From Myxococcota bacterium (GTDB lineage Bacteria > Myxococcota > B64-G9): a stretch of DNA of 64,000 nt. The stretch's first letter is position 1, and each line of letters begins with the position of its first letter. Position numbers and translations under genes: made by a program. The notes under the pieces are model-generated. The model was not told the DNA's origin. It did not search any database and was given only the letters and a program-made list of their open reading frames with translations. Shown piece by piece: positions 20,536-33,154 of the stretch. The DNA is taken from positions 124,001 to 188,000 of the forward strand of contig JAKLGA010000007.1 of assembly GCA_022710975.1 (NCBI GenBank), written 5' to 3'.

Positions 20536-21729
<1,194 letters not shown>

Positions 21730-21754: not shown

Positions 21755-22300
21755 ATGGACGCACCCGCCCCCACGCCCTCGTCCGAGCTCGCCAGCCTGC
21801 CGCTGTCCGCGCTCCAGGGGGAGCTCGAGACCCAGGGCGAGGCGCCCTTCCGCCGGGCGCACCCTCACGCCTACCTGCTGGTGCTGTTCGCCCCGCCGTC
21901 CTTCGACGAGCCGGCCCGCGCCGGCACCCGCCAGTCGCGCATCCCCGAGCTGGCGCTGCCCTCGATGCGGCCGGACATCCGCCGGGTGATCGAGCTCAGA
22001 CCCGGCCCCCAGAGCCAGGGCAGGGTGCGGGTCGGCCGCACGCCGGACAACGAGCTGGTCATCCCCTCCACCTGGATCTCGAAGCGCCACGCGGCGTTCG
22101 TCCCCCACCGGGCAGGGCTGGCGCTCGAGGACCTCGGCTCGGTCAACGGCACGCTCCTCAACGGGGCCAAGCTGGTGGCCCACCGGGCCTACCGGCTGGA
22201 GACCGGCGACAAGATCGCCCTGTGGCGCTACGTGTTCGAGTACCTGGACCCGGACGCGCTGATCCTCATGCTGCGCGAGCCGACCCGGCCGCGCGGCTAG
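21755..22300 (+). CDS. FHA-domain protein
   Basis: 181 residues. The forkhead-associated domain covers about 90-165 with VGRTPDNELVIPS, SKRHA and GSVNGT. The N-terminal 85 residues are proline/alanine-rich and unstructured in part. It should bind phosphothreonine peptides. Start ATG with GAAGGGA upstream. It ends 10 bp from the convergent sensor-kinase gene. Not the same subfamily as the FHA protein at 3442-3978: the FHA sits centrally and a hydrophobic tail (DALILMLREP) follows. Confidence 0.85.
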   Translation: MDAPAPTPSSELASLPLSALQGELETQGEAPFRRAHPHAYLLVLFAPPSFDEPARAGTRQSRIPELALPSMRPDIRRVIELRPGPQSQGRVRVGRTPDNELVIPSTWISKRHAAFVPHRAGLALEDLGSVNGTLLNGAKLVAHRAYRLETGDKIALWRYVFEYLDPDALILMLREPTRPRG

Positions 22301-22310
22301 CGCCCGCGCC

Positions 22311-23435
22311 TCAGGGCAGGCGGACGACGAAGGTGGCCCCGCCGCCGGGGGTCTCCTCGAAGTCGATCCGCCCCCCGTGGGCCTCCGCGATCTGCTTGCA
22401 CAGCGGCAGCCCCAGGCCGGTCCCGTCGCGCTCGTCCGTGGTGAAGAAGGGCTCGAACAGGCGCGCCCGGTGCTCGGGCGGGACGCCCGCGCCGTGATCG
22501 ATCACCCGCACGACCAGGGCGCCGGCCTCGTACGCCAGGCCGATCTCGATGGCCTGGCCCTTGGAGGAGGCCCGGGCCGCGTTCTTGAAGAGGTTCAGCA
22601 GCAGGTGCTTGAGCTGGCGGGGATCGAGGCGCCAGAGGCCGAGCTCCGGCGCGGGGACGACCTCCAGGCGCACGTGGCGGAAGGCGGGGTGGTGGGAGCA
22701 CAGGTGCACCACCTCCCGGACCAGCGCGATGGGGTCGGACTGGCTCCGGCTGAAGGGCATGGCCACGCCCTGGGCGAAGTCGCGGATGGAGGCGGCCACC
22801 TCGGCCAGGGTGGTGGCCTGCAGCTCGATCTGCTTGACCTGCTCGAGCTCGGACTGCTTCATCTCCGCGAGCTGCGTGTTCAGCATCATCACCACCTGCA
22901 GGTAGTTGGTCATCTCGTGGACCATCTCGGAGGCGAAGCGGCCCACCGCGGCCAGCTTCTCCTGGCGCAGGATGGTCTGCTGGGCGGCCTCGAGCTCGCG
23001 GGTGCGCTGCAGCAGATTTCGGTGCGCCTCGTGCAGATCGGCCGCGAGCTGGCCCTTGGCGACCAGCAGGTCGCGCCACTCCAGCGCCTGGCGGATGGTC
23101 AGGCGCATGTCGTCCACGTCCCAGGGCTTGATGATGTAGCGGTACACCCGGCCCTCGTTGATGGCCTTCAGCATGGCGTCGAAGTCGGTGAACGCGGTCA
23201 GCACCAGGCGCACGATGTCCGGCTTCCAGTCCTTGACCCGGGTGAGCAGCTCGACCCCGGTCATGCCCGGCATGCGCTGGTCGGCGATCAGCACGTCGAC
23301 CGGCTTCTCCTCGAGCACGCGCAGGGCGCTCTCCCCGCTCATGGCGGTGAGCACCAGGTAGTGATCCTCGAGCATGAGCCGCATGGGCTCCAGGCTGTCG
23401 CGCTCGTCGTCGACCAGGAGCAGGGTGTGGGTCAT
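22311..23435 (-). CDS. Response-regulator/histidine-kinase fusion
   Basis: 374 residues. A receiver domain (1-120; phosphoacceptor Asp in VLIADQRMPG, conserved Thr/Lys in VLTAFTD and YIIKPW) is followed by a short coiled coil, a dimerisation/phosphoacceptor helix (FASEMVHEMTNYL, about 165-175) and a HATPase domain (N box LLLNLFKNAA, G boxes DHGAGVP and GTGLGLPLC). REC-first kinases usually take a phosphoryl group from an upstream hybrid kinase. The ATG overlaps the stop of the 1183-residue hybrid kinase (ATGA), which makes that kinase the obvious partner. Last gene of a four-gene overlapping operon. Confidence 0.9.
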   Translation of the reverse strand: MTHTLLLVDDERDSLEPMRLMLEDHYLVLTAMSGESALRVLEEKPVDVLIADQRMPGMTGVELLTRVKDWKPDIVRLVLTAFTDFDAMLKAINEGRVYRYIIKPWDVDDMRLTIRQALEWRDLLVAKGQLAADLHEAHRNLLQRTRELEAAQQTILRQEKLAAVGRFASEMVHEMTNYLQVVMMLNTQLAEMKQSELEQVKQIELQATTLAEVAASIRDFAQGVAMPFSRSQSDPIALVREVVHLCSHHPAFRHVRLEVVPAPELGLWRLDPRQLKHLLLNLFKNAARASSKGQAIEIGLAYEAGALVVRVIDHGAGVPPEHRARLFEPFFTTDERDGTGLGLPLCKQIAEAHGGRIDFEETPGGGATFVVRLP

Positions 23436-26400
23436 GGTTGCCTCCGCGTCGTGTCCCCAGGGGCGGGCGGTTCGGGTGATGGCTCGGGACGGTGGTCGAG
23501 GCTGGGCAGCTCGAGGGAGAAACGGGTGCCGCGGCCCGGCTCGCTGTCGAGCTGGAGGGCGCCGCCGAGATCGGTCACCGTGCGCTTGACCAGGGCCAGG
23601 CCCAGCCCCACCCCCTTGCCCGGGTCCTTGGTGGTGAAGAACAGATCGAACACCCGGTCCCGGTTCTCGGGCGGGATGCCGCAGCCGTTGTCCTCCACCA
23701 CCAGGCGCGCCTTGCCGGCCTCGCGCCCGACGGCCACCCGCACCCACCCGCCCGGCTGGGTGGCCTGGACGGCGTTCTCCACCAGGTTGATGACGAGCTG
23801 GCGCAGCTCCTCCTGGGGTCCCCGCAGGCGCACCCCCTCGACCGCGGCCACCTCCAGGCGCACGCCCTTCTGCTCGGCGCTGGTCAGCCGGGACACCTCT
23901 TGGCGCACCAGCTCGCCGAGGTCCAGCTCGACCCAGGGCACGTGGAGCTGGCGGAAGGCGTAGCGCTGCAGCGACATGACCACCGCGCTGAGGCGCCCGA
24001 GCGCCCGCCGGGCGATGTCCTCCATGCGCCCGAGGTCGGCCTCCAGCGCGGGCGCCGGGTTCGCGCCCAGCGCGCGCCGGGCCACCAGCCAGCCGGCCTG
24101 CTGCGCGCTCTGGGCCTGGTGGGCGGCGTTGCGCAGCTCGTGCGCCAGTCCGGCCAGCAGCGTCTCCAGCGAGGCCGCGCGGCGGTTGGCGGCCACCTCG
24201 CTCTCGCGCACGCGCCGCGCCAGCAGCGCCTCGATGGCCGCCAGGAGCTCGGCCGGGTGGAAGGGCTTGGTCAGGTAGTGGTCGGCGCCGACCTGGTGGC
24301 CCTCGATGCGCCCCTCGTCGGCGCTGCGCGCGGTCAGCAGCAGCACCGGGATGTCTTGCAGGCGCGGGTTGGTCTTCACCCGGCGGCACAGCTCCAGGCC
24401 GCTCATGCCGGGCATCATCACGTCGCACACCACCAGGTCGTGCCGCTGGGCCTCCAGCAGCGCGAGCGCGCGCTCACCGTCCTGGACCGGCCAGAGGTCG
24501 TAGGTGGCGCCCAGCACCTGCTCGAGGAAGCGCAGCACGTCCGGGTTGTCGTCCACCACCAGCAGCCGGGCGGCCTTGGCGCCCTCGTCCTGGCGCCGCG
24601 GGGCCACGCGCCGCTCGGTGGCCTCCTCGAAGCCCAGGAAGCGGTAGTCCGGGCTGGCGCGGATCTGGTCGGTCCACTCGGGCAGGCCGGCGTCCTCCTC
24701 GCGCCGGAGCTCGGGCACCTGGTCGGTCCGCTGGCGGCGCTCGACGCGCTCCGCGGGCAGGCCGTCGGCCGAGAGCGGCAGGCGCACGGTGAAGCACGAG
24801 CCGCGGCCCGGCTCGCTCTCCGCCAGGAGCTCGCCGCCGTGCAGCTCGGCCAGCTCGCGGGCCAGCGACAGGCCGATGCCGGAGCCGCCCCGCCGCCGGG
24901 TGGCCGAGGAGTCCACCTGGTAGAAGCGGTCGAAGATGCGCCCGAGCTCCTCGGCCGGGATGCCCACGCCGGTGTCCCGCACCCGCAGCCAGGCCGCGCC
25001 GGGCGGGCCGGGATCCTCGCCCACCTCGAGCTCCACCCGCCCGCCCGGGTCGGTGAACTTGAGGGCGTTGGAGAGCAGGTTCACCACCACCCGCTCGAGC
25101 TTCTCCGGATCGGCCTCCAGCATCGGCCGCGGGCCGGCGGTCAGCTCCACCCGCAGGCGCTTGCGCTCGGCCAGCGGCCGGGCCGTCTCGACCAGCAGCG
25201 CCACCAGCCCGGCCAGGTCCACCTCCTCGAGCCGCAGGCGCAGGCGGGCGTCCTCCAGCCTGGACAGATCGAGCAGGTCGTCGATCAGCTTCAGCAGCAC
25301 CAGCGCGTTGCGCTTGAGCCCGTCGAGCTCCTGGCGCTGCTCGCCCGAGTAGCGCCCCAGCCCCTCCTCGAGCATGGCCTCCAGGGGCGAGAGGATCAGG
25401 CACAGCGGGGTGCGCAGCTCGTGGCTGATGTTGGCGAAGAAGCGGCTCTTGAGCTGATCGAGCTCGCGCAGCCTGAGGTTGGCGTCCTCCAGCTCGGCCG
25501 TGCGCTCGGCCACCCGGCGCTCGAGGCCCGCGGCCATCTCCGCCAGGGTGCGGCGCTGGGTGTCGGTCTCGTCGAACAGGAGCGCGTTCGACAGCCCGGT
25601 GGCGGCCGCGGCGCCCAGGCTGTCGAGGAACTCGAAGTCCCCGCGGGTGTAGGGCTTGAGCGAGCCCTTCTCCGCGAGGGTCAGCAGCCCGACCAGCGCG
25701 CCGGCCTGCACCAGCGGCACGGCCACCTCGGCCCCGACCCGGGCGAAGGCGCCCTCGGCCTCGGCCGCCGCGCCCGCCAGCCCGGGCATGGCGGCGAGGT
25801 GGTCGCGGCCGAGCGCGTTCGGGCTGGACGCCAGGAAGCGGCCGAGCTCGCCGCCCGGATCCAGCGGCCCCCCCTCGGGGCAGGCCGGCGCGGGCGACCC
25901 GGGCGGCCAGGCGAACACTCGCCAGGCGCCCTCGCGCCGCGGCCGCACCCACAGGCAGGCGCTGCGGGGGAAGAGCGCCTTGCCCGCCGACTCGAGCAGC
26001 GCCGTGCAGGCCTGCTCCACGCTGCGCAGCGAGGCCAGCTCGTGGGCCAGCAGGTCGAGCTCGCGGCGCTGATCAAGGGCGCTCCTCTGGAACAGCCGAT
26101 CGACGCGGGGCTTCAGCGCGCGCAGGTAGGCGAAACCGGCCAGGAAGAGCAGCGACAGCAGCAGCGTGGCGTCCAGCCGGGCGAGGCCCCGCAGCCAGGG
26201 TCCGATCAGCCACAGCAGGGCGTACAGCGGCACCAGCAGCGCGGCCAGCGCCACCAGCCAGCCGGCGGTGCGGTGCAGCACCGTGCGCACGTCCCACAGC
26301 CGGTGGCGGATCATGGCGACGGTGATGATCAGCGGCCCGAGCGGCAGCACCAGCGCCGGCAAGAAGTCCACGAAGGAGTTGCGCCCGAGGAGCGCGGGCA

Positions 26401-26983
26401 GGAGGGAACCGCTGGCTCCCACGCCGAAGCAGGCGAACGCAACCAGCATGTAGGCCGCCTGGGTGCGGCGCAGGCCGGTCGAGCGGCGGAAGAGCAGCAG
26501 GGCCAGGGCGAAGACCGAACCGAAGCCCAGCAGGATGTAGGCCATGTACAGGCCCATCAGGGATCCGGCCACCGGGGCGAAGTTGGAGACGGCGCTGGGC
26601 TCGGCGCCGCCCATGATCCAGTCCGTCGCCCAGAAGACTGGCAGCAGGGCCAGGCCCCAGACCCCGAGCGGGAGCCACAACCAGCGCAACTTGGAGAGCC
26701 CGGAGGAGAAGGCGCAGGCGAAGAGCACGAAGATCAGGATGGCCAGATCGCCGGCGGTCATGCCGGCGCGGATGAGCACGTCGGCGCCCTCGCTCGACTC
26801 GACCTCGCTGCCGTAGATGAGCAGGCCCGCGTAGACGGAGCCAATGATGCAAAACGCGATCCACAGGCGCATGACCGGGGTCCGCGCGCCCCGTGCCCAG
26901 GACAGGAAGGCCAGGATCACCAGGATGCCGGCCGTGACCAGGTTGGTCAGCAGGAAGGCGAGCTGCGCGAGGTCCTCGGTCAT
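23432..26983 (-). CDS. Multi-transmembrane hybrid sensor kinase with two kinase modules
   Basis: 1183 residues. In order: seven or eight transmembrane helices (about 5-270), a GAF-like domain (300-475), first HisKA (NISHELRTPL, about 520) and HATPase (620-735), a receiver (800-915; Asp in LVVCDVMMPGMSG), a second phosphoacceptor helix (GLAHELRNAAH, about 945) and a second HATPase (1040-1155; LVINLVENAVQAT, GVGLGLALVK). HK-REC-HK in one chain is uncommon and suggests an internal relay. The membrane part has no known ligand motif. Start and stop overlap both neighbours by 4 nt, so it is tightly coupled to the radical SAM protein upstream. Confidence 0.92.
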   Translation of the reverse strand: MTEDLAQLAFLLTNLVTAGILVILAFLSWARGARTPVMRLWIAFCIIGSVYAGLLIYGSEVESSEGADVLIRAGMTAGDLAILIFVLFACAFSSGLSKLRWLWLPLGVWGLALLPVFWATDWIMGGAEPSAVSNFAPVAGSLMGLYMAYILLGFGSVFALALLLFRRSTGLRRTQAAYMLVAFACFGVGASGSLLPALLGRNSFVDFLPALVLPLGPLIITVAMIRHRLWDVRTVLHRTAGWLVALAALLVPLYALLWLIGPWLRGLARLDATLLLSLLFLAGFAYLRALKPRVDRLFQRSALDQRRELDLLAHELASLRSVEQACTALLESAGKALFPRSACLWVRPRREGAWRVFAWPPGSPAPACPEGGPLDPGGELGRFLASSPNALGRDHLAAMPGLAGAAAEAEGAFARVGAEVAVPLVQAGALVGLLTLAEKGSLKPYTRGDFEFLDSLGAAAATGLSNALLFDETDTQRRTLAEMAAGLERRVAERTAELEDANLRLRELDQLKSRFFANISHELRTPLCLILSPLEAMLEEGLGRYSGEQRQELDGLKRNALVLLKLIDDLLDLSRLEDARLRLRLEEVDLAGLVALLVETARPLAERKRLRVELTAGPRPMLEADPEKLERVVVNLLSNALKFTDPGGRVELEVGEDPGPPGAAWLRVRDTGVGIPAEELGRIFDRFYQVDSSATRRRGGSGIGLSLARELAELHGGELLAESEPGRGSCFTVRLPLSADGLPAERVERRQRTDQVPELRREEDAGLPEWTDQIRASPDYRFLGFEEATERRVAPRRQDEGAKAARLLVVDDNPDVLRFLEQVLGATYDLWPVQDGERALALLEAQRHDLVVCDVMMPGMSGLELCRRVKTNPRLQDIPVLLLTARSADEGRIEGHQVGADHYLTKPFHPAELLAAIEALLARRVRESEVAANRRAASLETLLAGLAHELRNAAHQAQSAQQAGWLVARRALGANPAPALEADLGRMEDIARRALGRLSAVVMSLQRYAFRQLHVPWVELDLGELVRQEVSRLTSAEQKGVRLEVAAVEGVRLRGPQEELRQLVINLVENAVQATQPGGWVRVAVGREAGKARLVVEDNGCGIPPENRDRVFDLFFTTKDPGKGVGLGLALVKRTVTDLGGALQLDSEPGRGTRFSLELPSLDHRPEPSPEPPAPGDTTRRQP

Positions 26984-28635
26984 GGCGATTTTCGGCCTCT
27001 GGAGACCGGAGCGGTGAGCTCGGCGTTCAAGGTCCGGACCAGCGCGGTCAACCGGGCCGCGTCGAGGGTGAAGAACACCGCCTGCAACTGCTGGCGGAAC
27101 GCGTGCAGGCTCATCCCCAGCGCACCCGCGAGCACGACCATGTCGTCAGACAGGTTGACGATAACTCCCTCCGCGGCGACCTGGCGTTGGAATCCGGCGC
27201 TGAGCCCAGCGTAGCCAGCGAAGTCCCGACCGTCAAGGCGATAGGGCAACGGCTCCCAGAGGCTCGGGGGGATGATGTGTCGGATCCGGTACCGCGCGAG
27301 CCGCTGGCGGTACTCGCCCTCCCCCACCAGGAGCTCGAAGCCGAACGCCGCCTGCTCGTCGAACCAGCGGGTGCGCGGCACCAGGCCAGGGATCGAGATT
27401 TGCACCGGCACTGGACCCGACCGCTGGAGCCCGAGCAGCGCAGCCCGGTTTTGCGCCCTGGACTCCTCCGTCTGGCCGGGCAGCGGGACGATGAGGGAGA
27501 CCGCCGGGACGATGCCCGCGTCCTGGCAGGCCCGCAGGGTCGCCTCGGCGGCGCGCGGGTCCACCCGCTTGCCCAGCCGCCGCAGGTCGGCGGGGTGGAA
27601 CGACTCGACCCCGAAGAACAGGGACTCGCAGCCCACCCGGGCGAGGGCGGGCAGCATGTCCGCCGACAGATCATTGAGGTGCCCGAAGCCGCTCAACCTC
27701 AGCCTGCGCCCGGACGCGGCGAGCTCCGTGGTCAGCTCGCGGTAGAACCTGGCGGGAGTGCAGGAGCCGCCCAGCCGGAAGGCGCCCGTCCCGTGGGCCG
27801 CCTGGAGATCGGCCACCTCGCGCGCCACGCGCTGCACGGCCTTGACCCGCCAGAGGTCCCCGCTGGCCGAGCGATGGACGCAGAACGCGCAGCGCATGGG
27901 ACAGCCGCGGCTCTCGTCCAGCACGAACAGCTTGAGATGCTGATCGCCGGCCAGACTCGGGTAGACCTCGGTGCCGTAGCACGGAGGCGGCAGGGCATCC
28001 AGATCTGCGACCGCGGAGCGCCGGGTCCGCCTCCCGTCAGGCAGGATCAGGTTCGGCGCGTCCGCGAGCGCTCCTTGCCCCGTCGCCCATCGCGCCAGGG
28101 CCAGGACGGCCTCCTCTCCTTCCCCGTCGACCACGGCATCGAAGGCCCGGGTGAGGTCGAAGAGGGCCTGTTCGGAGTAGAGCACCGCGGGCCCGCCAGC
28201 CACGAGGCGCAGGTCGGGCCGGTGGCGGCGCAGCGCCTCTGCCAGCCGCACGCTGGCGAGGAATCCGTCCCCGCTCCACAGCTTGAAGCCCACCAGGTCC
28301 GCTCCGAACGCCCCGATCTCCTCGAGGAGCTCCGTGACCATCCAGCCGAGCGCCCGCTCGAGGTCGGTGTCCAGCGCAGCCTGGAGCGCGAGCAACCGCG
28401 GGCCGAGATCCACACCGCCGCCCGCGACGAGCTCGGGCAGCACCCGGGCCAGCTCCGCGGAGCGCTCCGCGGGAACGCAGCGCGCCAGGTGGGTGACCGT
28501 GTTGTAGTCGTGGACCCGCACCTCGTGGCCCGCCGCGAGCAGCGTGCCGGCCAGGCTGGCCAGCCCGTTGTCCGGGTAGAGCGAGGAGATCATCGCCGGC
28601 GGCCCCGCGTAGGTGATGAGCAGCACCCTAGCCAC
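26980..28635 (-). CDS. B12-binding-type radical SAM protein
   Basis: 551 residues. The N-terminal 200 residues form a cobalamin-binding-like Rossmann domain (LYPDNGLASLAGTLLAAGHEV; LVAGGPAVLYSEQ) without the His of the DxHxxG motif, as in some base-off B12 radical SAM enzymes. The radical SAM core begins at about 245 with CPMRCAFC, the CxxxCxxC ligands of the 4Fe-4S cluster, followed by LRLSGFGHLN and LFFGVESF, typical barrel strands. The C-terminal 130 residues are unfamiliar. Substrate unknown. It overlaps the kinase (4 nt) and the PilZ protein (8 nt). Confidence 0.85.
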   Translation of the reverse strand: MARVLLITYAGPPAMISSLYPDNGLASLAGTLLAAGHEVRVHDYNTVTHLARCVPAERSAELARVLPELVAGGGVDLGPRLLALQAALDTDLERALGWMVTELLEEIGAFGADLVGFKLWSGDGFLASVRLAEALRRHRPDLRLVAGGPAVLYSEQALFDLTRAFDAVVDGEGEEAVLALARWATGQGALADAPNLILPDGRRTRRSAVADLDALPPPCYGTEVYPSLAGDQHLKLFVLDESRGCPMRCAFCVHRSASGDLWRVKAVQRVAREVADLQAAHGTGAFRLGGSCTPARFYRELTTELAASGRRLRLSGFGHLNDLSADMLPALARVGCESLFFGVESFHPADLRRLGKRVDPRAAEATLRACQDAGIVPAVSLIVPLPGQTEESRAQNRAALLGLQRSGPVPVQISIPGLVPRTRWFDEQAAFGFELLVGEGEYRQRLARYRIRHIIPPSLWEPLPYRLDGRDFAGYAGLSAGFQRQVAAEGVIVNLSDDMVVLAGALGMSLHAFRQQLQAVFFTLDAARLTALVRTLNAELTAPVSRGRKSP

Positions 28636-30742
28636 GCAGCATCCTCATCAGCTCGTCCGTGTAGGCCATGTAGGCCGGCAGCACCTCTCGCCTCGCCAGG
28701 AAGCGCATCCCCTCCGCCTCGAAGAAGAAGCCCAGCGGCTCCAGCAGATCCATGGGCTCGCCGCCCCAGTGCCCGAAGTACAGGAAGCTCGGCCGGCCCT
28801 CGTCCGCGTAGTAGCGCACGGCCGCGTCCAGCAGCGCGAGCTTGACCCGATCGTCGCGCGCCGCCTCCGAGGCCAGGTAGACGATCCAGCAGCGGTCGAG
28901 CAGCCCGAACACGTTCAGCCCGGGCTCGCCCGTCTCGGCCAGCAGCGCGGCCAGCGGCTGCCCCTCGGGATCGACCGCCACCAGCACCTTGCGCGAGCGC
29001 CGGTAGCCGAACGCCTGGCAGCGCCGGCCGAAGGCGGCCAGCTCGAGGTCGTCGCCGTAGGCGTAGGCGGCGAACTCGATGGCCGGGACGTTCAGCGCCA
29101 GGTGCCGCACGAGGCGCTCGGCGTGGTCGACGCTGGCGGGCACGGCGCGCACCCCGCCCAGCCGCTCGGGCGGGACGTCCACCGGCGGCGCCGGCAGGTG
29201 GCGGTAGACCCCGTAGCCGTCGTAGGTCAGATCCTCGCGCTGCGGCTGGCGCAGCACGAACTGGCCGTACAGCATGTCGTTCCAGGGTCGCCCGGCCTCG
29301 GCGTAGATCACCCAGTGATCGATGGCCGCCAGGTTGTTGAGCAGGTGGCCCATGCCGCAGTAGGCGTCGCGCGCCAGGCGGAACAGCCCCTGCCGGTCGG
29401 CCCGGCGCTCGGCCTCGTCGATGCCCAGGTGGTGCACCATCCAGGTGCGCGGGTAGAGCAGGCTGGCGGCCACCGTGCCCACGCTGCGCTGGTCCTTCTG
29501 CACCAGCAGGAAGCGACCGAGCGCCGGCTCGTCCGCGTGCTGCTGCCAGGCGCCGGCGAAGCTCACCGCCAGGCTCGGGCGCAGGGCCTCGGCCACCTCC
29601 TCGGGGTAGCGCGCGCGCACCAGCACGTCCCAGGTGTCCGCCACGCTGTCCTCGCCGCCCAGGCGGACCCGCGGGTGGCCCGCCTCGAACACGAAGCGCC
29701 CCCAGCGCTCCTCCCCGTCCGCGGACACGAAGTCGAGCAGCTCGAGCCCGCACACCAGCCCCGCGCCGGGCTCGGTCAGCCGCACCGAGCGCAGGGCCGC
29801 CCGCGCCAGCACCGTCCCGCCCGGCAGCTCCAGGCGCACCTCGGGCAGCAGCTCCCCGGGGAACAGGCGGTCGCCCGGCGGCTCCAGGGGGAAGGCCAGC
29901 CCGCGCCCGCTCACCTCGAGCACGCCCTTCCACAGGTGGGTCCCGGCCAGCCGCGGGTGGGGGATGGCCGCGACCAGCGGCTGCCCGGTGGGCAGGGCGA
30001 CGCGCACCGACCCGCGGAAGCCCGTCTGTCGCACGTCGGCCGGGAGCGTCAGCCAGACCCGGCCGCCGGCCTGGCGCAGGACCGTGGCCTCGAAGAAGGC
30101 GATGGCCTGGTAGGACGGGAAGAAGAAGGTGAGCTCCTCCCCCTCGCGCAGGGTCTCCTCCAGCCCGTCGCGGGCGAGGCCCTCCACCACCATGCGCCCG
30201 AACACGGTGTCGAACACGCGCGGCGTCAGGGAACCCGGCAGCTCGAGCTGCCCGCGCAGGGCCCGCAGCGGCCGCCCCTGGCCGATCAGGTGGTGGGACA
30301 GCATGCGGAACACGAGATCCCGGCGGCTCACCCCCAGGGAGCGCTCGCGCGCCTCGGCCCCCAGGTCGCGCGCCTGGCCCTCGCGGCGGAAGCGCTCCAC
30401 CAGGAACACCGACAGCCGGCCCAGGGCCTCGGGCCCGATCTCGCAGAAGCGCAGGCCGACCAGCAGCCCCCCGGACGCGGGCGCGGCCCGGATCGGCTCG
30501 GCCTCCAGCTCGACCTCGCCGGCGTCGGGCAGCCCGAGCCTCAGCCGGACCCGGGCGAAGGCAGGCCAGCGCCCCGCGGGCAGCGCCAGCCCGACCCCGC
30601 TCGCGCTCAGCTCCACCACGTGGGCGTCGGCCCACACCACGGGCTCGAGCACGCGGACCCTGGGCTGCCCCACCCGGATGCGGCTCGAGTCCCTGCGCTC
30701 CCGCTCCACGGCCCACGTCCTCGGTCCCCCCCGAAAGCGCAT
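28628..30742 (-). CDS. Double PilZ-like protein fused to an acyltransferase-like domain
   Basis: 704 residues. The N-terminal part (about 10-120) is PilZ-like: RRDSSRIR followed by ELSASGVGL. A YcgR-N-like barrel (about 200-265, EGEELTFFFPSYQ) and a second PilZ-like barrel (270-370, FRGSVRV then VLEVSGRGLAF) come next. The C-terminal 330 residues resemble a GNAT/N-acyl-transferase fold with VLVRARYPEEV and LVQKDQRSVGTVAASLLYP. It would be a c-di-GMP-gated enzyme or adaptor; the acyltransferase assignment is moderate. First gene of the minus-strand operon and divergent from the second radical SAM gene. Confidence 0.7.
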   Translation of the reverse strand: MRFRGGPRTWAVERERRDSSRIRVGQPRVRVLEPVVWADAHVVELSASGVGLALPAGRWPAFARVRLRLGLPDAGEVELEAEPIRAAPASGGLLVGLRFCEIGPEALGRLSVFLVERFRREGQARDLGAEARERSLGVSRRDLVFRMLSHHLIGQGRPLRALRGQLELPGSLTPRVFDTVFGRMVVEGLARDGLEETLREGEELTFFFPSYQAIAFFEATVLRQAGGRVWLTLPADVRQTGFRGSVRVALPTGQPLVAAIPHPRLAGTHLWKGVLEVSGRGLAFPLEPPGDRLFPGELLPEVRLELPGGTVLARAALRSVRLTEPGAGLVCGLELLDFVSADGEERWGRFVFEAGHPRVRLGGEDSVADTWDVLVRARYPEEVAEALRPSLAVSFAGAWQQHADEPALGRFLLVQKDQRSVGTVAASLLYPRTWMVHHLGIDEAERRADRQGLFRLARDAYCGMGHLLNNLAAIDHWVIYAEAGRPWNDMLYGQFVLRQPQREDLTYDGYGVYRHLPAPPVDVPPERLGGVRAVPASVDHAERLVRHLALNVPAIEFAAYAYGDDLELAAFGRRCQAFGYRRSRKVLVAVDPEGQPLAALLAETGEPGLNVFGLLDRCWIVYLASEAARDDRVKLALLDAAVRYYADEGRPSFLYFGHWGGEPMDLLEPLGFFFEAEGMRFLARREVLPAYMAYTDELMRMLRG

Positions 30743-30773
30743 CCGCGGCGTCGCCAGAACTTCCCGGGTCCAG

Positions 30774-30794
30774 CATACCTCAAACCGAGGTATG
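30774..30794. promoter_or_regulatory. Operator-like dyad between divergent operons
   Basis: Perfect 8-bp arms CATACCTC and GAGGTATG separated by AAACC. On the minus strand the dyad overlaps a -10-like TATGCT (30777-30772). No good -35 is present on either side, which suggests activator-dependent transcription of both radical SAM operons. Confidence 0.5.
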
Positions 30795-30856
30795 GTGGGG
30801 TGCTCGACGAAGGCAGGCGAGGCGGGCGCAACGGGGGGGGGAGCACGGAGGACCGC

Positions 30857-33154
30857 TTGGATCGAGACGCAGAATTCGACGTGGTCTTCCTCCACCCGCC
30901 CACCTCCTTCACCAAGCTGCGGTACCCGCTGGGCGGGCTGTTCGAGGCGGCCACCGGGACCGGCGATCTCCTGGCCATGATGCCGCTGGGCATGCTGAGC
31001 CTGGCCAACGAGCTGGCCCGGGCCGGGCGCCGGGTGGCGGTGCTCAACCTGGCCAAGGCCATGCAGCCGCTGCGGCCCCTCGGGGAGGCGGCCCGGGGAC
31101 CGCTCGAGGAGCTGCTCCGCGCCCACCCGGCCAGGCTCTACGGCGTCGGGTTGCACTGGGCCGCCCACGCCCCGGGCGCGCTCGAGCTGGCCGCCTGGTT
31201 GAAGCGCCTTCACCCGCAAGCGCGCGTGCTGCTGGGCGGCCTGAGCGCCACCTGCTTCGCGGACGAGCTGCTGCGCGAGCACCCGGCGGTGGACTGCGTG
31301 GCGGTGGGCGAGTGCGACGGCTGGATGCCGGCCATCGCCGCGGCGCTGCTCGCGGACCCGCCCGACCCGTCCGCGGCCCCGAACCTGGCCTGGCGCGAAG
31401 GGGGCGCCGTGCGGCGGAGCCGGCGCGAGGCGCCCGCGCTCGAGGCGGTGGACACCCTGGACGAGCGCGGCCTGGTGCGGCCCGCGCCCGAGCGGGCCAG
31501 GCTCGACCGGGACGCCCTGCTCTGCAACCTGCCCGTGGTGCGCGGCTGCAGCCAGGAGTGCCTGTTCTGCGGCGGGAGCGGCTCGGCCTACCGCGGGCGC
31601 TACTTCCGCGAGCGGGTGGAGCTGCTGCCGGTGGAGCGGGTGCTCGACCACGCCCGGCGCGCGGCCGCGCTCGGCCTGAGCGGCATCAAGCTGTTCGGCG
31701 ACCTGCGGCTCGGCGGTGAGGACTACGTGCGCGCGCTGCAGGCGGGGCTGCGGGCGCTCGGCCCGCGCCTCGACCTGTTCCTGGAGCTGTTCTGGCCGGC
31801 CCGCCGGGAGGAGCTGGCGGGCTGGCGTCCGCTCGCCCGTGAGCTGCACCTGTCGCTCAGCCCGGAGTCCAGCCACCCGACCCTGCGCGCGGCGCTGGGC
31901 AAGACCTTCGACAACCAGGCCCTGCTCGAGCTGGCCCGGGACTGCGAGGCGCTCGACATCTCGGCCTGGTTCTTCTTCACCTACCTGCTGCCCGGCCACA
32001 CCCCGCAGAACCTCGCCGCCGAGCTCGGCCTGCTGGGCGAGCTGCTGCGCGTGGCGCCCTCCTCGGCCGCGCTCAGCCTGCCCTACCTGTTCGTGGATCC
32101 GGCCGCGCCGCTGTTCGAGGACCCGGCCCGCTGGGGTTTCACCGTCACCTTCGACAGCCTGGCGCGCATCCGGGCCGGGCTGGAGCGGCCCTACTGGCTC
32201 TCCGCCATCGGCTACCGCACCCCGTCCTTCGACGAGCACGGCCTGCACCGGGCCATCCTCGAGCTCACCCTGGGCCAGGCCCGGCTGTACTTCCAGACCG
32301 GGCGCCTGTGCGCGCGCGATCTGCTGCGCACCCGGCAGAACCTCGAGCTGCACCGCGGGCTCGGCGAGGCGCTGGCGGCCTCCCCGCAGCTCGACGATGG
32401 CGCGGTCCAGGCCGAGATCGAGCGGCGCTTCCCCGCGCACCTGCGCCAGGGCAGCCCGAGCCTGCTGCTGCGGGCCTTCTTCGGCGAGCCGCTCGCGCGC
32501 GCGGCCGCGCCCGGGGCGCTGGCGTACGAGGCCTTCCCCTGGGCGCTCGAGCTGCTGCTCGGCCGGGACCCGGGCGCCGAGGAGCGGGCCTGGCGGGGGT
32601 TGGACGGCTGGAGCGCGGAGCACGCGGCCAAGCTGCCCGGGCTGGCCGCGGCCGCGGCGCCGCCCGCGTCGCTGCTCGCGCTCTACCAGCGGCTGTTCGC
32701 CCCGACCGGGCTCTCGGCCGCCTTCCTGGAAGCGCTGCTCCGCCTGGAGTGGGAGCTGCACCGCCTGGCCCACGCGGCGCCCGGCGAGGGCACGCCGCGC
32801 GGGCTGCGGTCGCCCTGGCGGCTGCTCGATCCGCTCGAGCTGCTGGCCTCGCTGGCGGACGGCCAGGACGCCCCGCCGCGGGAGGAGACCTGGTACCGGT
32901 TCCTGCCGGCGAGCCGGACGGCGCTGGCGCTCTCCTTCGACCCGGACGCGCTGCCCGCGCGGGTGCCCCGGGCGAGGATCGTGCGGCTGAACCCGCTGGC
33001 CCGGGCCCTGGTGAAGGCCGAGCCGGCCATGCGGAAGGTGCTCGCGCGAGTGCTCGGCCGCCCGGCCCCGCTCGCCCCGGAGGTGCTGCTCGACGGGCGG
33101 GACGTGCCGGAGGCGGAGGTGCGCTCGGCGCTCCAGACCGCAGGGCTGGGGTGA
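30857..33154 (+). CDS. Radical SAM protein with N-terminal B12-binding-like domain
   Basis: 765 residues from a TTG at 30857 with GGAGG 5 nt upstream; no ATG is in frame. The N-terminal 190 residues resemble a cobalamin-binding fold (MMPLGMLSLANELARAG, VLLGGLSATCF). The radical SAM cluster motif CSQECLFC is at about 230. The barrel includes SGIKLFGDLRLGG and ELHLSLSPESSHPTLR. The C-terminal 350 residues are helical and unrecognised. A run of nine G precedes the ribosome-binding site (30833-30841). Only distantly like the radical SAM protein at 26980-28635; substrate unknown. Confidence 0.82.
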   Translation: MDRDAEFDVVFLHPPTSFTKLRYPLGGLFEAATGTGDLLAMMPLGMLSLANELARAGRRVAVLNLAKAMQPLRPLGEAARGPLEELLRAHPARLYGVGLHWAAHAPGALELAAWLKRLHPQARVLLGGLSATCFADELLREHPAVDCVAVGECDGWMPAIAAALLADPPDPSAAPNLAWREGGAVRRSRREAPALEAVDTLDERGLVRPAPERARLDRDALLCNLPVVRGCSQECLFCGGSGSAYRGRYFRERVELLPVERVLDHARRAAALGLSGIKLFGDLRLGGEDYVRALQAGLRALGPRLDLFLELFWPARREELAGWRPLARELHLSLSPESSHPTLRAALGKTFDNQALLELARDCEALDISAWFFFTYLLPGHTPQNLAAELGLLGELLRVAPSSAALSLPYLFVDPAAPLFEDPARWGFTVTFDSLARIRAGLERPYWLSAIGYRTPSFDEHGLHRAILELTLGQARLYFQTGRLCARDLLRTRQNLELHRGLGEALAASPQLDDGAVQAEIERRFPAHLRQGSPSLLLRAFFGEPLARAAAPGALAYEAFPWALELLLGRDPGAEERAWRGLDGWSAEHAAKLPGLAAAAAPPASLLALYQRLFAPTGLSAAFLEALLRLEWELHRLAHAAPGEGTPRGLRSPWRLLDPLELLASLADGQDAPPREETWYRFLPASRTALALSFDPDALPARVPRARIVRLNPLARALVKAEPAMRKVLARVLGRPAPLAPEVLLDGRDVPEAEVRSALQTAGLG

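Follow-up and report, generated by a model that had tools for sequence, protein, structure and literature searches.

A conserved Myxococcota locus joins a PixB-type PilZ-GNAT gene and B12-binding radical SAM genes to a predicted kinase phosphorelay

We analyzed a stretch of 64,000 nucleotides (the window) from a Myxococcota bacterium (assembly GCA_022710975.1, contig JAKLGA010000007.1, positions 124,001 to 188,000; contig C27 of the 7.13-Mb genome). It contains a locus of five genes, named here PZG, RS1, HHK, RHK and RS2, which form a conserved module, most firmly PZG-RS1-HHK-RHK. On the minus strand, PZG (28628–30742, about 704 residues) encodes a PilZ domain, a YcgR-like PilZ domain and a tandem GNAT region of PixB type. 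It is followed by RS1 (26980–28635, 551 residues), a B12-binding radical SAM protein, by HHK (23432–26983, 1183 residues), a membrane hybrid kinase with a receiver (REC) domain between two histidine kinase units (HK-REC-HK), and, last of the overlapping set, by RHK (22311–23435, 374 residues), a REC-histidine kinase. As the initial annotation had described, these four genes overlap end to end, i.e., by 8 bp between the PZG stop and the RS1 start (28628–28635, read from the sequence) and by 4 bp each at RS1/HHK and HHK/RHK. On the plus strand RS2 (30857–33154, 765 residues), a second B12-binding radical SAM protein, diverges from PZG as had been noted, across an intergenic gap (30743–30856) that measures 114 bp rather than 115 bp if PZG starts at an ATG (30742) and RS2 at a TTG (30857). 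Both starts at this gap could shift by some tens of bases, and a GTG at 30709 is an alternative PZG start. No sigma-70-like consensus was found in the 114 bp, where such a consensus scan is uninformative at the given G+C content.

All five genes recur with identical order and orientation on contig JAFGRB010000189.1 of genome G005 (loci L066/L069), which is from the same family but another genus. Identities to the window are 49% for RS2, 39% for PZG, 50% for RS1 and 62% for RHK, whereas HHK is 47% identical to its L069 counterpart overall and 55% in its C-terminal part. The initial annotation would have counted it as refuting if no other genome had the five families together; G005 has them. Contig JAADFL010000087.1 (L090) carries PZG-RS1-HHK-RHK without RS2, with 45% identity for HHK and 54% for RHK, and JASJCT010000057.1 (L097) carries PZG-RS1-HHK, with HHK at 43%. 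In a further genome (G006) PZG and RS1 run to the contig end, and in G015 (L067/L093) a 559-residue PilZ protein precedes RS1, with a C-terminus that we read as GNAT-like and that Pfam leaves unnamed. The PZG/RS1 overlap of 8 bp is identical in the window, L069 and L090, and its retention makes translational coupling of the two genes likely. The flanks are non-homologous: comparison of all called genes returned only two weak matches, one Rrf2-like (24%) and one sigma-factor-like, both in L090.

Because another genus has the five genes in an identical arrangement between unrelated flanks, the set is more than a chance assembly. A coincidence, in which radical SAM genes and kinases are merely adjacent, is hardly credible. 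It could draw on the absence of RS2 from two of the four PZG-RS1-HHK loci, but it conflicts with order, orientation and overlaps kept at 39–62% identity within changed flanks, and with the enrichment of kinases over control loci described below. Chance is refuted for PZG-RS1-HHK-RHK and remains an explanation for RS2 only. The proposal that all five genes act together hence gains support for four of them from the G005, L090 and L097 loci, the last holding three; it is weaker for RS2. RS2 keeps its divergent arrangement in L066/L069, and an RS2-like gene directly precedes RS1 in L073, but it is the least firmly linked member.

RS1 and RS2 are assigned to the cobalamin-binding radical SAM enzymes by their domains and CxxxCxxC motifs. 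Pfam matches to B12-binding (PF02310) and Radical_SAM (PF04055) were above cut-off in both, with 50 and 59 bits for RS1 and 39 and 36 bits for RS2. The cysteines are C245/C249/C252 in RS1 and C231/C235/C238 in RS2, the latter kept in the divergent copy. In a 39-sequence alignment the CxxxCxxC motif and a GFKLW[NS]G signature were invariant across RS1 relatives, and the RS1 profile matched CysS, AprD4, TokK, TsrM and OxsB with E values from 7e-12 to 3e-21. Neither protein reached the cut-off of a named NCBIfam equivalog, and the methylation or rearrangement of a substrate suggested in the initial annotation stays putative for both. The closest named families for RS1 were ApyD and rSAM_ocin_1, all far under cut-off (ApyD, NF050148, 98.7 of 750 bits; the RiPP radical SAM C-methyltransferase family TIGR03975, 86.5 of 281.85), and there was weak similarity to the lipid-acting B12 radical SAM families TIGR04072, HpnR and HpnJ. 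RS1 represents a B12 radical SAM family of its own that has no name yet. In L090 (10001–11628) an apparent frameshift breaks RS1 in two, with residues 1–304 and 293–541 in different frames, either by assembly error or by decay.

The two best named matches of RS1 would suit a ribosomally synthesized and post-translationally modified peptide (RiPP), i.e., a small pheromone-like peptide that RS1 modifies and the kinases sense. Given that all NCBIfam scores are far under cut-off, that no conserved small open reading frame was found near RS1 beyond close relatives and that the overlapping window genes leave a precursor no space between them, we regard this as very improbable.

RS2 matches the Ta0216-type B12/radical SAM family TIGR04190 over residues 8–477 (211.6 bits, cut-off 500) and, unlike that family, has about 300 residues past the matched part. 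Structure prediction of the radical SAM C-termini, which had been suggested, was run for RS2 from a three-sequence alignment. The AlphaFold2 model had a predicted local distance difference test score (pLDDT) of 54, with the C-terminus mostly below 50 and hence too low for a fold of these about 300 residues. An RS2-like gene of Myxococcaceae adjoins genes for an acyl-CoA dehydrogenase, an AMP ligase and condensation domains. Elsewhere in the genome of the window (G000:C26, L060 8288–17843), four to five radical SAM-type genes lie side by side, two of them Pfam-confirmed and one 30% identical to RS2; this run looks like a separate biosynthetic cluster.

In HHK, Pfam found a weak GAF domain followed by HisKA, HATPase, REC and a second HATPase. 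A hydropathy scan predicts about eight to nine transmembrane segments within residues 1–290, and a motif scan places the histidine boxes at H521 (HisKA) and H948 (second unit). RHK matched Response_reg with 73.7 bits and HATPase_c with 97.9 bits; its candidate phospho-histidine by motif scan is His173. HHK and RHK together show the features of hybrid phosphorelay kinases as predicted from their domains, i.e., HisKA/HATPase, REC and a second kinase. Among the five genes Pfam revealed no output response regulator, DNA-binding or enzymatic. NtrC-like regulators are found in seven other RS1 loci.

Pfam detected a single PilZ domain in PZG (34.7 bits), which is the N-terminal one. A motif scan located one RxxxR per PilZ unit (R17xxxR21 and R243xxxR247) and, in both units, ExSxxG at 44 and 276 instead of [D/N]xSxxG. 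We compared an AlphaFold2 model of PZG, made from a four-sequence alignment (mean pLDDT 72), with the PDB. In this model residues 136–357 resemble MrkH and YcgR (Z 12.2–12.6) at a root mean square deviation (rmsd) of about 12, high presumably because the two domains are set differently. Residues 356–689 resemble tandem GNAT enzymes (Z 14–15.8). The top match, 9emp (Z 15.6 over 283 residues, rmsd 5.9; 9emd, Z 15.8), is a histidine acetyltransferase whose structure contains N-myristoyl histidine, and N-myristoyltransferases also match at Z about 12.5. With Pfam and, for the second PilZ and the GNAT region, the structure model, the domain calls first made for the five genes are borne out.

This is the architecture of PixB (MXAN_2604) of Myxococcus xanthus, i.e., two RxxxR PilZ units and a C-terminal GNAT. 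PixB binds cyclic di-GMP (c-di-GMP) and controls motility and development via its acetyltransferase domain; its substrate is, according to the authors, still to be determined, and pixB may form an operon together with the next two genes (PMC8316039). The PixB precedent supports the predicted coupling of the window locus to c-di-GMP through PilZ.

PixB-type loci were also seen among our genomes. Genome family f13, a group of large genomes placed in the same phylum by our grouping, we take to be Myxococcaceae. In this family, at L049 (8859–14988), genes for a PixB-type protein, a SAM methyltransferase and a hybrid kinase stand in one row, and the same row occurs at L053 (195–6224) in another family of the phylum; the kinase is HK-REC-HK by Pfam at L049 and by similarity only at L053. 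The L049 protein has its RxxxR motifs at R122 and R332, nearly at the positions R121 and R331 that were mutated in PixB, and is on this ground very probably the PixB orthologue. The C-terminal half of PZG aligns with it in sequence. Other Myxococcaceae PilZ-GNAT copies (L048 9364–12268 and L054 9528–12267) are followed by a Haem_oxygenas_2 gene for an iron-containing redox enzyme, Pfam-tested in L048.

We scanned GTDB genomes with the RS1 alignment and obtained 42 clear relatives; 38 weaker B12 radical SAM loci served as controls. The relatives come from Zipacnadia, Armatimonadota, PVC, WOR-1, Calescamantes, Desulfobacteraceae, Anaerobacterium and other lineages. A check for plasmid-borne copies returned none. 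The 'Aenigmatarchaeota' label of L076 is probably a binning error, as the locus closely matches L072 of Phycisphaerae. A kinase lay within 6 kb in 33 of the 42 relatives but in only 3 of the 38 controls, as counted with a profile built solely from window genes (Fisher p 6e-11); when RS1 is clustered at 55% identity, 16 of the 20 clusters carry one. REC-histidine kinases resembling RHK (at least 100 bits to RHK) were present in 22 of 42 RS1 loci and in none of the controls.

Genes of acyl metabolism also accompany RS1. Within 6 kb we found FabF-type ketosynthases in 10 loci (15 by wider gene clustering), FadL in six and FeeM-type acyltransferases in five, each against none of the 38 controls; Pfam confirmed the sampled ketosynthases, FadL and FeeM (127 bits in L072). 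In the Desulfobacteraceae loci L100 and L101, PilZ-FeeM fusions identified by Pfam stand immediately upstream of RS1; no control has such a fusion. RS1 of Anaerobacterium (L095) adjoins genes for KAS III, an AMP/acyl-CoA ligase, an acyl-CoA dehydrogenase and a PapA-like acyltransferase; a LuxC/LuxE reading by eye at this locus was dropped, as the LuxE candidate had no Pfam family and the LuxC candidate was a weak Aldedh match. In the RS1 tree, PilZ-GNAT partners occur in two separate places and FeeM or PilZ-FeeM partners in three others. The RS1 family is linked to kinases and acyl-metabolism genes. At L071 (9977–20187) and similar Zipacnadia-type loci, RS1 precedes, in constant order, three kinases, then a ketosynthase of FabF type and a protein resembling an outer-membrane barrel.

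The recurring neighbors, i.e., FeeM, ketosynthase, FadL and the ligase/KAS III genes, together with the B12 radical SAM enzyme itself, argue for an acylated small molecule as substrate, rather than or besides a protein. RS1, with or without RS2, might instead change acyl chains of structural lipids, with HHK as a sensor of membrane state and PZG as a link to surface or biofilm life. Such remodeling would agree with the weak likeness of RS1 to lipid-acting families, with the hydrophobic N-terminus of HHK and with the HisKA_7TM kinase and FadL present in other RS1 loci. Among the clusters found, however, none that recurs beside RS1 is a glycerolipid or hopanoid gene family, and FeeM-type enzymes yield free N-acyl amino acids, not membrane glycerolipids; we consider lipid remodeling unlikely. 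It is also unlikely that the locus is a relay for protein modification free of any small molecule, in which PZG acetylates and RS1 and RS2 methylate motility or envelope proteins under control of the kinases. For this speaks that the PixB effect on motility and development runs through its acetyltransferase domain (PMC8316039), and that the SAM methyltransferase in the RS1 position of the Myxococcaceae locus could be a protein methyltransferase. The neighbors of RS1 relatives nevertheless suit small acyl substrates better, and no further recurring protein-modification genes were seen near them.

Our preferred explanation is that, through this module, the chemistry of an acylated small molecule is linked with both c-di-GMP and a kinase phosphorelay. 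Besides the conservation and the neighbors of RS1, this draws on the likeness of the C-terminal PZG fold to N-acyl-histidine-forming and N-myristoyl transferases, on PilZ-NAS fusions as makers of N-acyltyrosine (PMC4897644) and on c-di-GMP binding by PixB (PMC8316039). PZG would be an N-acyltransferase with its activity set by c-di-GMP through the PilZ domains. RS1 would modify the same molecule or the acyl donor, most likely by C-methylation, and RS2 might add a second radical step in the same pathway. HHK would sense the product or the resulting membrane state and pass phosphate via REC to RHK, whose target regulator may be encoded elsewhere. The gene set with its overlaps, the domain architecture, the conservation across genera and the statistical link of the RS1 family to kinases and acyl-metabolism genes are observed; substrate, reaction, direction of signaling and c-di-GMP binding are what we infer. 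We advance this reading, from the making or tailoring of the molecule to its perception by HHK and RHK and the control of PZG by c-di-GMP, tentatively and with slightly less than even confidence. A wider, undescribed signaling principle spanning phyla is conceivable but doubtful. In it, the cobalamin radical SAM enzyme would produce or tailor an acyl signal perceived by the adjoining phosphorelay, and Myxococcota would add c-di-GMP via PixB-type acyltransferases.

Several observations weigh against the small-molecule proposal. PZG does not appear to be a FeeM protein by sequence: it matched neither the Pfam family (PF21926) nor a FeeM profile made from RS1 loci, and was rejected as a member. 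The GNAT fold, known here from a model, cannot separate an acetyl from a long-chain donor, and PixB is seen by its authors as an acetyltransferase (PMC8316039). The window locus holds no ketosynthase, acyl carrier protein or FadL gene. The enrichments are relative to other B12 radical SAM loci of the same scan and not to a random genome, most RS1 relatives lie on contigs of metagenome-assembled genomes, some of unsure binning, our gene calling was simple, and the deeper splits of the RS1 tree have weak support.

A FeeM search of the genome of the window returned none. At the kinase end the locus faces, in convergent orientation, a glycine C-acetyltransferase gene (20536–21729) and an FHA-domain gene (21755–22300). 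The longest mechanical open reading frames, 28590–30776 on the minus and 28613–33154 on the plus strand, were discarded as shadow or over-extended frames; the true PZG frame is contained in the frame 28628–32773. PADLOC gave weak generic domain matches only, and a defense system was dismissed. At L097 (265–2375), several kb from RS1, a peptide-like gene lies by a B12/radical SAM-like gene in a RiPP-like arrangement; by eye we read the peptide as of nitrile-hydratase-leader type, with no Pfam match.

The initial annotation stated that it knew no described counterpart of the set. Our searches of open-access literature agree, with nothing relevant found on a B12 radical SAM enzyme and kinase combined with a ketosynthase or N-acyl amino acid, but the PixB relative and the association of RS1 with kinases in many phyla had been missed. 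A kinase phosphorelay is the main companion of the RS1 family in many phyla, an association for which these searches gave no description. The locus moreover offers a lead to what PixB-type PilZ-acetyltransferases act on; PixB controls both motility and fruiting in M. xanthus.

Among known systems, class B cobalamin radical SAM enzymes (CysS, TokK, AprD4, TsrM, OxsB) share the B12 domain and CxxxCxxC motif with RS1, whereas RS1 and RS2 fit no named equivalog; to our knowledge, none of these five enzymes is kinase-linked. The PilZ-NAS fusions Nas343 and Nas354, which make N-acyltyrosine, resemble PZG in joining PilZ to an acyltransferase with a GNAT-like fold, and the fusions that directly precede RS1 in L100 and L101 are of their type. 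They differ from PZG in domain order and number and in the FeeM sequence match that PZG lacks, and the passages available to us mention no radical SAM enzyme or kinase (PMC4897644). The closest likeness in architecture is to PixB, which like PZG has two PilZ domains, both with RxxxR, before a GNAT, although the two are only 23% identical and the C-terminal half of PZG is modeled as a tandem GNAT. The locus of the apparent PixB orthologue has an HK-REC-HK kinase downstream, as is found after PZG, but no RS2, and its middle gene is a SAM methyltransferase where the window has RS1. By position, not homology, the window locus would thus look like a pixB-type operon with a B12 radical SAM enzyme in place of the methyltransferase.

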